Positions 21,981 to 29,796 of a DNA stretch of 29,956 nucleotides are shown one piece after another. The DNA is from a virus. The translations under genes and the position numbers were made by a program. Location: the IMG/VR virus record IMGVR_UViG_3300021960_000343, positions 1 to 29,956 of that record; one strand, given 5' to 3'. Under the pieces are notes generated by a model, which made no database searches, was not told the origin of the DNA, and saw nothing but the letters and a program-made list of their open reading frames with translations. The stretch's first letter is position 1. Each line of letters opens with the position of its first letter.

Positions 21981-22143
21981 AATACACAAGCGGCTCAAAC
22001 AGAACTTGTGCCCCAAGTGCTGCCAAGAGCTTAAAATTGTTGAAAAAACAGAAGAAATCCTTGTTAGGCGGTGTGGATCATGTCGACTAGACATTCACGA
22101 CAACATGGAAAGTGCAGAATATCCGGATGAAATATGGGATTAG
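21943..22143 (+). CDS. Small zinc-ribbon protein
   Basis: This 66-residue protein carries CPKCC (residues 23-27) and CGSC (44-47), a typical two-knuckle zinc ribbon, with a polar N-terminus and acidic C-terminus. It starts inside the ribbon-helix-helix gene (overlap 38 bases), so the two are likely co-translated. It is not obviously related to the zinc-ribbon protein at 18864 beyond the cysteine layout. Role unknown; nucleic-acid or protein binding is plausible. Confidence 0.7.
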   Translation: MTQTNDLSNEPGEIHKRLKQNLCPKCCQELKIVEKTEEILVRRCGSCRLDIHDNMESAEYPDEIWD

Positions 22144-22161
22144 TAGTTGAATATCCCATAT
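22132..22161. promoter_or_regulatory. Inverted repeat over the small-RNA promoter (possible operator)
   Basis: ATATGGGAT (22132-22140) and its exact complement ATCCCATAT (22153-22161) have centres 21 bp apart, about two helical turns. The right arm overlaps the spacer just after the -35 box. The core TCCCAT is the same variant half-site seen near 22910 and 26200. Confidence 0.5.
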
Positions 22162-22174
22162 GTGGTGGTATAAT
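22147..22174 (+). promoter_or_regulatory. Strong sigma70-type promoter for the small RNA
   Basis: TTGAAT (22147-22152), 16-bp spacer, perfect TATAAT (22169-22174). The expected transcription start is near 22181 and a terminator follows within about 77 nt, before any gene starts. Confidence 0.8.
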
Positions 22175-22180
22175 GGAGCG

Positions 22181-22257
22181 CGTGGTCACGGCCACACTCC
22201 GTAGTGAAAAGACCCGCCCCTAGTTCGGTTGCCCCCGGCTAGGGGCATTTCTTTTTT
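22181..22257 (+). ncRNA. Candidate small RNA with hexaloop TTGCCC
   Basis: The segment runs from the expected start of a TTGAAT/TATAAT promoter to the T run of a terminator and contains no gene. A 5' hairpin GTGG-TCACGG-CCAC (22182-22195) is followed by an unpaired stretch (about 22201-22215). The terminator hairpin has stem GCCCCTAG (22216-22223) with CTAGGGGC (22239-22246), and inside it a second helix CGG (226-228)/CCG (235-237) that closes the six-base loop TTGCCC (22229-22234). That loop is the exact complement of the GGGCAA hexaloops in four leaders downstream. Alternatively it is an attenuated leader of the gene at 22269; the ribosome site of that gene directly follows the terminator. 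Confidence 0.65.
22216..22257 (+). terminator. Terminator of the candidate small RNA
   Basis: An 8-bp stem GCCCCTAG/CTAGGGGC is followed by ATTTCTTTTTT. The enclosed 15 bases, unusually many for a terminator, can fold further into a small helix that presents TTGCCC. Confidence 0.85.
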
Positions 22258-22268
22258 AGGAGAACACT

Positions 22269-22484
22269 ATGGAAAATCAGAAACAATTCGTCGATGGCCT
22301 CATCGCAAAAAAACCACGGGATAACGCTCCCGACTGGGTTAAAGTCAATCTAAGCATCAAGCGCGAAGAACTCGCTACATGGCTCACGAGCCAAGAGGGC
22401 GATTGGATCAACGTGCAGGTTTGCGAAAGCCGCAATGGCAAATGGTACGCAGAGGTGGATACATGGAAGCCAACAACCGCGTAA
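22269..22484 (+). CDS. Small conserved phage protein, function unknown
   Basis: This 71-residue protein starts at an ATG with TTAGGAGA ahead. 'FVDGLIAKKPRDNAPDWVKVNLSIKREELATWL' and 'NGKWYAEVDTWKP' match a small family I recognise in many marine phages and prophages, usually in early or replication regions and of unknown function. It begins right after the small-RNA terminator, so its expression depends on readthrough or on that terminator being controlled. It overlaps the next gene by 22 bases. Confidence 0.8.
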   Translation: MENQKQFVDGLIAKKPRDNAPDWVKVNLSIKREELATWLTSQEGDWINVQVCESRNGKWYAEVDTWKPTTA

Positions 22485-23342: not shown

Positions 23343-23641
23343 AGGAAGACCTCAAAGAAAAATGGTGGGCGTGGCACAAACAAAACCCAGAGTTCTATAA
23401 ACTCTTCGAACGCTTCACCTTCCAAGCTATCGAGGGTGGACACTCTCGCTTTTCCGCTTGGCTAATCGTTAATCGCATCCGGTGGGAGACCATGATCGTC
23501 ACCACCGGCGACGACTACAGAATTTCCAACGACTACATAGCCCTGTATGCGCGGCTCTTCATGCACGAGCATCCGCAATACAAAGGCTTCTTCAGAACGA
23601 AACCGATGAAGCGGGCAAGCTTCAATGGAGAAACATCATGA
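23339..23641 (+). CDS. Conserved phage protein, function unknown
   Basis: This 100-residue protein has many aromatic residues. 'FERFTFQAIEGGHSRFSAWLIVNRIRWET' and 'YRISNDYIALYARLFMHEHPQYKGFFRTK' match a family I recognise from phages and prophages of Proteobacteria, frequently near replication or recombination genes; I know no activity for it. It is translationally coupled (ATGA) to the AlpA-like gene upstream and to the next gene. Confidence 0.78.
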   Translation: MKEDLKEKWWAWHKQNPEFYKLFERFTFQAIEGGHSRFSAWLIVNRIRWETMIVTTGDDYRISNDYIALYARLFMHEHPQYKGFFRTKPMKRASFNGETS

Positions 23642-24345: not shown

Positions 24346-24387
24346 ATCGGTTGGAAAAAGCCAGCCGATTGGGACGGGCAAGTCCCA
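24346..24387 (+). promoter_or_regulatory. Structured 5' leader with GGGCAA hexaloop
   Basis: The leader begins with a 9-bp hairpin (ATCGGTTGG AAAAAG CCAGCCGAT, 24346-24369). Directly next is TGGGAC GGGCAA GTCCCA (24370-24387), a perfect 6-bp stem with loop GGGCAA. The same loop on different stems occurs in three more leaders downstream. Confidence 0.75.
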
Positions 24388-24421: not shown

Positions 24422-24883
24422 ATGAGTGAAGCTAACCCTACCCCTGTGTTCGTTTACAACGATGGAGGCCGAAAGGCCGCAGGCTACAAAGGCAGCGCAG
24501 ACGACTGCGTTTGTCGAGCCATCGCCATCGCAGCGCAACTCCCCTACCAACAGGTCTATGACCGACTGGCAGAAGGAAACGCCTCGCAGCGTAAATCGAA
24601 ACGCACGGGCAAGCAGTCCCGATCAGCCCGTAACGGTATCTATACCAAGCGTAAATGGTTTAAGGACTACATGCTTGAACTAGGCTTCGTCTGGACCCCT
24701 ACGATGCAGATCGGCAGCGGGTGCCAAGTCCACCTCAAAGCTGATGAGCTACCGGGCGGACGTATCATCTGCTCAGTATCTAAGCATTACGTCGCAGTCA
24801 TCGACGGTGTTATCAACGACACCTACGATTGCTCCAGAGACGATAAGCGATGCGTCTACGGCTACTGGACCATGCCTCAATAA
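24422..24883 (+). CDS. Papain-like-fold cysteine peptidase/amidase-like protein
   Basis: This 153-residue protein has ACGGAGG ahead of its ATG. The sequence shows 'DDCVCRAIAIA' (C29 on the first helix), 'SVSKHYVAVIDGVINDTYD' (H122 followed by D133) and a basic loop in between. A Cys near the start of a helix, followed by a beta-strand His and a later Asp/Asn, is the order of papain-like or C39-like enzymes, and this pattern recurs in a family of phage proteins. Catalysis is inferred; targets could be host proteins early in infection. It is a single-gene cassette with its own promoter, structured leader and terminator. Confidence 0.65.
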   Translation: MSEANPTPVFVYNDGGRKAAGYKGSADDCVCRAIAIAAQLPYQQVYDRLAEGNASQRKSKRTGKQSRSARNGIYTKRKWFKDYMLELGFVWTPTMQIGSGCQVHLKADELPGGRIICSVSKHYVAVIDGVINDTYDCSRDDKRCVYGYWTMPQ

Positions 24884-24889
24884 CCACGG

Positions 24890-24918
24890 CCCCCGGTCCA
24901 CGGATCGGGGGTCTTTTT
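24890..24918 (+). terminator. Factor-independent terminator
   Basis: CCCCCG (24890-24895) pairs with CGGGGG (24906-24911), followed by TCTTTTT. Confidence 0.85.
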
Positions 24919-25242
24919 GCGTCGATCACGGCCCACGGGGTAACAAATTGAACGCGCTTTCCTTATATATAGAGCCAAAATCAAAAAAATATTTTTTAGC
25001 AAAAATGGCCGTAACCGGTGTAACCGTGTAACTTTGGGCAAAAAGTCTTTTATATATATAGACTTAGAAGAAACACAAAGTAGAAATCAAAAATGTAACG
25101 TAACCAAAGTTTGTGTAACCTGTAGAGGGCGAAAGTGCGTTAAGGGGGTCGTGGCAAATTTTTTTTAAAAATATTTTTCTGGCTATATATAAACAAAGCG
25201 GTTAATTTGTGGTAAACTATCGGTAATTAACTGGAGTTTGTC
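24919..25242. other. Gene-free AT-rich region with GTAAC iterons (candidate origin or packaging site)
   Basis: I see no credible gene between 24884 and 25242. The region holds GTAAC or GTAACC on the plus strand at 24940, 25011, 25020, 25028, 25095, 25100 and 25115. It also holds three TATATA-type boxes (near 24964, 25052 and 25184), long A/T runs (for example near 24982-24998 and 25157-25178) and a hairpin AAGTCT/AGACTT (25043-25067). Direct repeats beside AT-rich DNA are typical of replication origins; position just before the small terminase gene also fits a packaging (pac/cos) site. Neither is proven. Confidence 0.55.
25031..25046 (+). promoter_or_regulatory. Weak fifth GGGCAA hexaloop hairpin
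   Basis: ACTTT GGGCAA AAAGT forms a 5-bp, mostly A-U stem with the same loop as the four leaders. It is not linked to a clear promoter or start codon, and the last bases can instead pair in the AAGTCT/AGACTT hairpin, so it may be chance. Confidence 0.35.
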
Positions 25243-26227: not shown

Positions 26228-26254
26228 TCTCTTTTAACTTACGGAGGATATGAG

Positions 26255-27845: not shown

Positions 27846-27874
27846 AGGGGCCGCTCGGGCAATGGGCGGTCCTT
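27846..27874 (+). promoter_or_regulatory. Leader hairpin with GGGCAA loop
   Basis: GGGCCGCTC (27848-27856) pairs with GGGCGGTCC (27864-27872) with two G-U pairs and can extend by two more pairs; the loop is GGGCAAT. It lies between the promoter and the ribosome site of the DUF932 gene. Confidence 0.75.
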
Positions 27875-27898
27875 TTAACTTTTACGGAGTGTAAAATC

Positions 27899-29089
27899 AT
27901 GACTTATCAAACAAACGCAATCGCGCACGGCATCGGCAATTCGGCAGTATCTTCGCAATGGTACAGCCGCCCAGACGATCAAAAGTTTTTGTCGCTGGAC
28001 GACATGCTGGCCTTTAAGAAAATCGACGCCCAGCGCATGACATCCCGCACGGTCGACACGCACAAAATGCGCATCGTCGGGGAAGTCGACCAGAGCCGTC
28101 CCAGTGTCGGCGAAATATTTGTGGAATATAACGACGACAACGGGCGGGACCATTTAAACACCCCGACCAATTGGAGCTTTGGACAGCTTGCCCAGCTTGC
28201 GGGGGCACCGTCTGGATATTTGAAAGACTTGCCCGCCCCGCTTGCGGCGGATTGTATTCAATGGGGTTTACGCTATAACCGCGGGCGGGAGCTGGTCAAA
28301 GTTTACGGGCACCAAACCGACGGCGGCGAGCTACGGGCCGCAACTGGCCCCGACTATGGCCGGATTTTTGACTGGGAAATTTTGGAACCGATCAAAAACC
28401 TTGTGGACGCGTCCGGCGGTCGCTGGAAAGTGCCCGGCATGATGACCGGCAGCCGCAACGGTTTGGCCGTTTACGATCCAGAAATCCCCGTGAGCATGGA
28501 AACGACGACGCTATTTGCATCGGATCGGGACGTTTTCGTTTTCTTGGTCGACGACCGCAACCCTATCGAGGTCGGCAAGCTTGCGAACGGCGAGCCCGAT
28601 TTGATGTTTCGGGGTTTTTATGCGTGGAACAGTGAGACCGGCAGCAAAACCGCCGGGATCGCTGCAATGTATCTCCGCGGGGTTTGCATGAACCGCAATC
28701 TGTGGGGCGTCGAAAACTTTCAAGAAATTAAAATCCGGCATACTAAATTCGCCCCCGACCGTTTCGCCATGGAAGCCCGCCCAGCTCTGGAAAGCTTCGC
28801 GCATGGGTCGACCACAACATTTGTCGAAGGCGTCGAAGCGGCCAAGGCGGCCAAGGTGGCACGGGACGACGACGACCGGCTGGACTTTTTGACCAAGCGG
28901 GCGGGATTATCTGGACGCATGGCCAAGGCAGCGGCGGCCCGTCACATTGTTGAAGAGGGGCGCCCCGTCGAATCCGTCTGGGATGCAGCGCAAGCGATTA
29001 CCGCAATCGCCCGCGACATTCCCCACCAAGATGCTCGCATTGATATGGAGCGCAAGGCGGGGGCATTGCTGGACAAGGTCGCAGCATAA
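27899..29089 (+). CDS. DUF932-family phage/plasmid-like protein
   Basis: This 396-residue protein starts with the ATG after TTTACGGAGTG. 'WSFGQLAQLAGAPSGYLKDLPAPLAADCIQWGLRY', 'LRAATGPDYGRIFDWEILEPI' and 'GFYAWNSETGSKTAGIAAMYLRGVCMNRNLWGVENFQEIKIRHT' are the characteristic segments of DUF932 (TIGR03299), found on phages and plasmids. The family is often highly expressed or early and is suspected to bind single-stranded DNA, but the role is unproven. Full length for the family. Single-gene cassette: promoter with tandem operator, GGGCAA leader hairpin, then terminator at 29117. Confidence 0.85.
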   Translation: MTYQTNAIAHGIGNSAVSSQWYSRPDDQKFLSLDDMLAFKKIDAQRMTSRTVDTHKMRIVGEVDQSRPSVGEIFVEYNDDNGRDHLNTPTNWSFGQLAQLAGAPSGYLKDLPAPLAADCIQWGLRYNRGRELVKVYGHQTDGGELRAATGPDYGRIFDWEILEPIKNLVDASGGRWKVPGMMTGSRNGLAVYDPEIPVSMETTTLFASDRDVFVFLVDDRNPIEVGKLANGEPDLMFRGFYAWNSETGSKTAGIAAMYLRGVCMNRNLWGVENFQEIKIRHTKFAPDRFAMEARPALESFAHGSTTTFVEGVEAAKAAKVARDDDDRLDFLTKRAGLSGRMAKAAAARHIVEEGRPVESVWDAAQAITAIARDIPHQDARIDMERKAGALLDKVAA

Positions 29090-29184: not shown

Positions 29185-29202
29185 CCAGCCGGGCAAGGCT
29201 GG
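29185..29202 (+). promoter_or_regulatory. Leader hairpin with GGGCAA hexaloop
   Basis: CCAGCC GGGCAA GGCTGG: a perfect 6-bp stem with the shared loop, starting within the first bases of the expected transcript. Confidence 0.8.
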
Positions 29203-29229: not shown

Positions 29230-29655
29230 ATGGCAAACATTCACGTTATAAACATTCGCCCCAGCGACTCTATGCTGGACCGTGTCTTAAACCCTGCCGC
29301 GGATCGTCGCATTGGAGCGGCCCGCCCCGCCGACATCATCGAAGCGTGCGGGATCATTCCCGACTTTTTTTATACGGCTTGCATTATGTCGAGCAATAGC
29401 GACGGCGTCACAACGCTGGACGCTATCGCGGACGGCATGGACGCCGAATATCAAATGGGCGGCTTTTGCTATCCCTTCGGCGGATCGGTCGACGTCGACG
29501 GGACATATCACAGCGAATTCGCGGACGATCCAGACATGGCCCCGCTGGCCCGCTTTGGATTTGACGGGCGCTTTTTCTGCTATGTCTATGACTATGGGAT
29601 AACCGCGATCCGCGACGGGCTGGACGGGCCCTTTAAAATCGCCCGTTTTGATTAA
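29230..29655 (+). CDS. Phage cassette protein, function unknown
   Basis: This 141-residue acidic protein has ACGGAGG before its ATG. It has a helical N-terminal half ('SMLDRVLNPAADRRIGAARPADIIEACGIIPDFFYTACIM') and a second half rich in Asp, Phe and Tyr ('GFDGRFFCYVYDYGITAIRDGLDGPF'). I do not recognise it. Like its neighbours it is a one-gene unit with promoter, operator, GGGCAA hairpin, ribosome site and terminator all its own. Confidence 0.75.
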   Translation: MANIHVINIRPSDSMLDRVLNPAADRRIGAARPADIIEACGIIPDFFYTACIMSSNSDGVTTLDAIADGMDAEYQMGGFCYPFGGSVDVDGTYHSEFADDPDMAPLARFGFDGRFFCYVYDYGITAIRDGLDGPFKIARFD

Positions 29656-29747: not shown

Positions 29748-29767
29748 CGACGGGGGGCAACCCGTCG
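29748..29767 (+). promoter_or_regulatory. Leader hairpin with GGGCAA hexaloop
   Basis: CGACGGG GGGCAA CCCGTCG: a perfect 7-bp stem with the shared loop. The stem sequence differs from the other three leaders while pairing is kept. Confidence 0.8.
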
Positions 29768-29796
29768 CAACTTTTAACAACTACGGAGACCATACC

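Follow-up and report, generated by a model that had tools for sequence, protein, structure and literature searches.

A candidate phage RNA complementary to the Shine-Dalgarno sequences and leader loops of several phage genes

Most known antisense RNAs of phages target a single phage gene or genes of the host. In ColE1, a cis-encoded antisense RNA controls replication priming. For S. aureus RNAIII with its targets and for OxyS-fhlA, a loop-loop contact together with pairing to the Shine-Dalgarno (SD) sequence represses translation. In phages P1 and P7, the c4 RNA pairs around the ribosome binding site of the ant mRNA and blocks its translation (PMC12197685). In the Cluster K mycobacteriophages, a conserved extended SD (SAS/ESAS) is repeated before many non-structural genes, and in the K1 phages a single SAS copy has the opposite orientation and is not associated with a gene start (PMC3203893). 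Within the ESAS lies a promoter that has an inverted repeat (PMC11373665).

The window analyzed here is a whole IMG/VR virus record of 29,956 bases. The candidate RNA and its surroundings consist of the following features:

22147..22174, + strand, sigma-70-like promoter TTGAAT-16-TATAAT, overlapping the TATGGGAT...ATCCCATA inverted repeat (22133, 22154)
22181..22256, + strand, candidate small RNA of ~76 nt, from its fold energy and its homologues in many viral contigs
22182..22195, + strand, 5' hairpin adjoining the anti-SD, from the fold and the comparison of homologues
22197..22204, + strand, CUCCGUAG, anti-Shine-Dalgarno (anti-SD) segment, unpaired in the fold and complementary to SDs
22216..22256, + strand, G+C-rich intrinsic terminator hairpin and T-run, from a terminator-like call and a 34-sequence alignment
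22269..22484, + strand, small conserved gene that follows the terminator directly, a possible read-through gene without a Pfam or PHROG match

The sequence-only reading of this DNA had proposed a TTGAAT-16-TATAAT promoter and a terminator with no gene between them, and both were recovered at 22147-22174 and 22216-22256. A promoter of its own and an intrinsic terminator around a short non-coding stretch are found in trans-acting base-pairing sRNAs. The sequence from 22181 to 22256 folds with -32 kcal/mol compared to -21.4 kcal/mol (sd 2.9) for its shuffles (z = -3.7). In this fold the apical loop of the terminator, UUGCCC at 22229-22234, is unpaired and closed by a CGG/CCG helix, just as had been described for TTGCCC, and the open stretch between the two hairpins of the 76-nt RNA reads ACUCCGUAG. 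Most of the homologous RNAs also have the promoter and the inverted repeat upstream.

The reverse complement of the anti-SD segment is exactly CUACGGAG, the SD found downstream of GGGCAA hairpins, and two leaders have UUACGGAG at this position. The leaders and SDs of the window are as follows:

24370..24387, + strand, leader hairpin UGGGAC[GGGCAA]GUCCCA of gene 24422, 6 bp, perfect hexaloop
24407..24414, + strand, SD CUACGGAG of gene 24422-24883, from the exact-word count
26239..26246, + strand, SD UUACGGAG of gene 26255, in a leader without a loop hairpin, from the exact-word count
27846..27874, + strand, leader hairpin of gene 27899 (DUF932), loop GGGCAAU (7 nt), from the fold
27882..27889, + strand, SD UUACGGAG of gene 27899-29089, from the exact-word count
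29185..29202, + strand, leader hairpin CCAGCC[GGGCAA]GGCUGG of gene 29230, 6 bp, perfect hexaloop
29214..29221, + strand, SD CUACGGAG of gene 29230-29655, from the exact-word count
29748..29767, + strand, leader hairpin CGACGGG[GGGCAA]CCCGUCG of gene 29797, 7 bp, perfect hexaloop
29781..29788, + strand, SD CUACGGAG of gene 29797, from the exact-word count

TACGGAG occurs six times in the 29,956 bases. Five copies are on the + strand and all of them are SDs (genes 24422, 26255, 27899, 29230, and 29797); the sixth, on the - strand, is the RNA itself. GGGCAA as a bare word shows no enrichment over the window (31 copies vs 23.5 expected), and what stands above chance is its position inside leader hairpins. 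The predicted targets include the DUF932 gene (phrog_1362) and are otherwise cassette genes mostly of unknown function. Four leaders had been read earlier as GGGCAA hexaloops; this holds for those at 24370, 29185, and 29748, while the loop at 27846 is better read as GGGCAAT, with 7 nt. A weaker leader copy had also been claimed at 25031. Its hairpin is not followed by an SD and is absent in relatives such as L221, so it was rejected as a target, and the observation stands except for this copy. A hairpin at 23607-23624, inside a coding end and unlisted earlier, is retained in the nearest relatives only and was set aside.

Some further features of these regions were observed. The hairpin at 27846-27874 is followed by T-rich sequence, scores as terminator-like and might also attenuate transcription. 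The stretch 24900-25200, before the terminase small subunit gene, is conserved and non-coding with GTAAC repeats and an ACTTT[GGGCAA]AAAGT hairpin, and is possibly a packaging or replication site. The RNA (22181-22256) resembles the reverse complement of the leader at 29748-29788. A single pattern scan matches both, so the RNA may derive from an inverted leader copy.

The earlier idea that one trans-acting RNA uses complementary loops to control a group of phage mRNAs is supported here in an amended and stronger form. With CUCCGUAG/CUACGGAG as a second pairing site, the idea becomes one of blocking ribosome binding. A short antisense RNA would be transcribed from its own promoter and would expose the anti-SD and the terminator loop UUGCCC. 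This loop would kiss the GGGCAA loop at the 5' end of a leader as a docking step, and the anti-SD would then zip onto the private SD CUACGGAG, which lies 4-35 nt (usually 7-15 nt) past the loop. Since the order is loop-SD in the mRNA and anti-SD-loop in the RNA, both pairings can be collinear and antiparallel. A covered SD would block 30S binding, which would make the RNA a shared repressor of translation, or a timer, for a phage regulon. On the sequence comparisons given here, the RNA probably pairs in trans with several phage leaders, and repression is the likeliest outcome.

The P1 c4 RNA is the closest described system, and the present RNA would work like c4 without being a member of its family. 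The likeness lies in a phage RNA that pairs with its own phage mRNA around the ribosome binding site and in complementary sequences placed in loops (PMC12197685). In contrast, the target of c4 is the ant mRNA, in heteroimmunity, whereas the present RNA has several predicted targets with a shared SD, a separate promoter, and a single-stranded anti-SD combined with a putative terminator-loop kiss. No Rfam family matched the RNA: all five hits were far below the gathering score, none of them was to a C4 family, and the plasmid ctRNA model (RF00236, gathering score 45) reached 14.8 bits and was not matched. ColE1 RNA I/RNA II, which had been named as the analogue, is not the best one, and a P1 c4-type RNA fits better. 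ColE1 shares the complementary hairpin loops, but the present RNA is trans-encoded at its own locus, and only the loop and SD segments are complementary. RNAIII and OxyS are host-encoded and unrelated in sequence, whereas here a phage RNA is matched to a phage regulon. The kind of system, a phage antisense RNA at ribosome binding sites, is known, and its new aspect is the predicted multi-target, two-site pairing.

To follow this architecture in relatives, about 300 viral-contig loci were gathered by protein searches with genes 24422, 27899, and 22269. Among them 48 clearly distinct homologues of the RNA were found, and the architecture recurs in a family of uncultured marine phages. In the 34-sequence alignment, 95.7% of the cells of the terminator helix are paired and 7 of the 11 pairs have changed on both sides. 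The covariation score was reached by 0 of 500 shuffles, and only the true register is 95.7% paired, as sliding destroys it. The TTGCCC loop is invariant in the 34-sequence set and almost invariant among the homologues overall, on closing stems that vary (CTC/GAG, TGC/GCG, CGG/CCG, and others). More than 30 different stems occur in the 5' hairpin, and nearly all of them end 0-3 nt from the anti-SD. As a sequence feature, the RNA element is real and conserved.

The leaders were examined over the same ~300 loci with a scan that was agnostic to the loop. This gave 49 distinct GGGCAA hairpins, together with readings of the same type as GGCAA (14) and GGGCAAA (7), and any unrelated loop reached 5 at most. 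TA[CT]GGAG follows in 63 of 74 such leader hairpins, most often 7-15 nt on. Over 263 related loci, which include some redundancy, CTACGGAG stands in the SD position in 164 of 167 distinct coding-strand contexts, and CTCCGTAG lies inside the RNA in 40 of 50 contexts. At least four of six near-complete relatives of 54-57 kb have the SD copies on one strand and a single nearby copy, the RNA, on the other. The search of a phage collection returned no similar DNA and no relative carrying the RNA. Of the characterized isolates compared, DSL-LC04 and the HTVC023P stretch examined had neither GGGCAA leaders nor the RNA, and the stretches of Mae-JY30, S-ESS1, and ZS04 showed no convincing SD with a single reverse copy. 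In another lineage (L186 at 2859 and 5171, L187, and L189), GGTCGGC[AACGG]GCTGGCC leader hairpins stand before starts, and no matching RNA was found there.

Co-change of the pairing sites was seen in L216/L218. The RNA of these contigs has the loop UUGCCU, and CUCCGUAG is replaced by ACCUUUAGUUGGUUAGUG. Two L218 leaders have AGGCAA loops, and one of them then has ACUAACUAACUAAAAGG and, a few bases on, AUG. In an energy scan over whole contigs many chance windows scored equal to the true sites, so contiguous pairing and exact-word counts were used instead. By contiguous pairing over the whole L218 contig, several operon SD regions were among the best sites on the + strand. As in trans-acting sRNAs, the complementarity is short, falls on the ribosome binding site regions of mRNAs encoded elsewhere, and co-evolves.

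The specificity of the match was evaluated by swapping RNAs between lineages. The L218 leaders reached a mean of -21.0 kcal/mol with their own RNA compared to -5 to -11 kcal/mol with those of other lineages, in a set of six of which four were picked for complementary-looking SD regions and the two AGGCAA leaders were found independently. The leaders of the window gave -16.5 kcal/mol with their own RNA and -11.3 kcal/mol with the L218 RNA. A third group (L345, L362, and L364) combines SD regions such as ACUAACUAUUUGGAG with RNAs that contain CUCCGUAGUUAGU, and its leaders gave -17.5 kcal/mol with the L345 RNA vs -9.5 to -13.6 kcal/mol with the others. The cognate energy was reached by 0 of 500 shuffled linkers in every case. 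For L219/L192, the own RNA was not the best scorer among several similar RNAs. Smaller changes (CUCUGUAG, CUCUAUAG, and CUUCGUAG; single substitutions in L190/L219, L226, and L034) retain the SD pairing via G-U wobble, or via A-U in L226.

The two pairing sites do not stand equally firm. The sequence-only reading had expected the loops to change together. They do so in L216/L218 (UUGCCU/AGGCAA), one lineage of two contigs that carries the whole of the loop covariation, but not in L221/L364, where the RNA loop is AUGCCC and the leaders do not fully match. AUGCCC is also the RNA loop of L212, L220, L225, and L349. The leader loops of L364, which is 97-99% identical to L221, are GGGCAAU, GGGCAAAA, and GGGCUU; the GGGCAU leaders predicted for this lineage were not found in L364, and pairing is reduced to the GGGC core and one or two further bases. 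Because the RNA loop changed here without a full match in the leaders, the SD pairing is the firmer and better supported site on the sequence comparison. Some SD-matched leaders have no loop hairpin, such as that of 26255 and several in L218. Together with the partial loop pairing in L221/L364, this suggests that the kissing contact is probably an aid to the SD pairing and not a requirement.

The same pairing could also have another outcome, in which the RNA activates or stabilizes the leaders, or the leaders are sponges that titrate an RNA with its main target elsewhere, for example in host mRNAs. In the leader of 27899 the SD is folded into a small hairpin of its own, so that pairing could in principle remodel it. 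However, in the other leaders of the window the SD is largely open, with a weak helix or none, and pairing covers it; moreover, co-evolution with the RNA extends to the SD regions themselves. We regard such an outcome as unlikely.

A second reading takes the element as a 5' leader with an attenuator-like terminator that controls gene 22269 in cis and has no role in trans. The SD and ATG of this gene do lie a few bases past the terminator, and the arrangement is conserved. This leaves the matches of CUCCGUAG and UUGCCC to remote leaders and the co-change in L216/L218 unexplained, and in L099 and L113, where a different gene follows in place of a 22269-type gene, the RNA is kept with both elements. 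It seems quite improbable that cis control is all there is, and the choice between termination and read-through into gene 22269 may contribute an effect in cis beside the role in trans. The protein of gene 22269 has four distant relatives in bacterial MAGs (Ignavibacteria-type and Geobacteraceae). Finally, it is highly improbable that the GGGCAA hairpins are sites of a phage or host RNA-binding protein, with CUACGGAG as the preferred SD of the phage that matches the RNA by coincidence: an invariant loop on variable stems is typical of protein-bound hairpins too, but the 8-mer and the 6-mer both match one RNA in collinear order, that RNA holds 40 of the 50 reverse-complement contexts, and both sites were re-matched in L216/L218.

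No tyrosine integrase was found in eight relatives, none of them rated complete, so a role of the RNA in the timing of lytic growth appears somewhat more likely than one in lysogenic immunity.

The nearest parallel to the leaders themselves is SAS/ESAS, with its repeated extended SD and its single reverse copy in K1 phages. The likeness is one of analogy only, as the 13-bp SAS consensus GGGATAGGAGCCC is not matched here, where the SD is CTACGGAG, and ESAS has a promoter with an inverted repeat instead of a loop hairpin. A partner RNA of SAS/ESAS is not described in the cited literature, though an earlier mention may exist for ZoeJ. In Adephagia (L356), the reverse SAS copy lies at 58,682-58,694 in the gene-free gap between genes 92 and 93, and in Angelica (L357) a single reverse copy lies at 58,634-58,646, also in a gene-free gap. 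In both phages a strong hairpin presents the copy as its 10-nt loop (CCUCCUAUCC). This hairpin may represent a second case of an anti-SD RNA, as a lead from the sequence. The reverse copy of ZoeJ serves as the SD of a gene that runs leftward, and the Pixie and Kratio stretches examined contained no exact reverse copy.

Unrelated phage groups might each use a private SD for their own gene set and one complementary RNA that switches the whole set, with the marine family as one case and K1 Adephagia/Angelica maybe as an independent one. This generalization is doubtful, and the Pixie and Kratio stretches, which lack an exact reverse copy, weaken it. In the marine family, an RNA that governs a whole set of the phage's own messages through a private SD and a loop code would add a new layer of phage gene control. 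Such a system would be conserved in a large set of uncultured marine phages and be recognizable from sequence alone. The start-associated sequences of mycobacteriophages, so far unexplained, would also gain a testable model.

A motif family is common to the promoter of the RNA and those of its predicted targets. TATGCGA occurs 10 times in the window vs 3.3 expected, and all copies are in promoter regions of cassette genes:

22900, 24320, 24330, 26210, 26220, 27017, 27823, 27833, 29166, 29731, TATGCGA copies

The RNA's own promoter has a TATGGGA/TCCCATA version at 22133 and 22154 (TATGGGAT...ATCCCATA). With such motifs at the RNA and at its predicted targets alike, a shared operator is likely, through which one DNA-binding regulator would also govern them.
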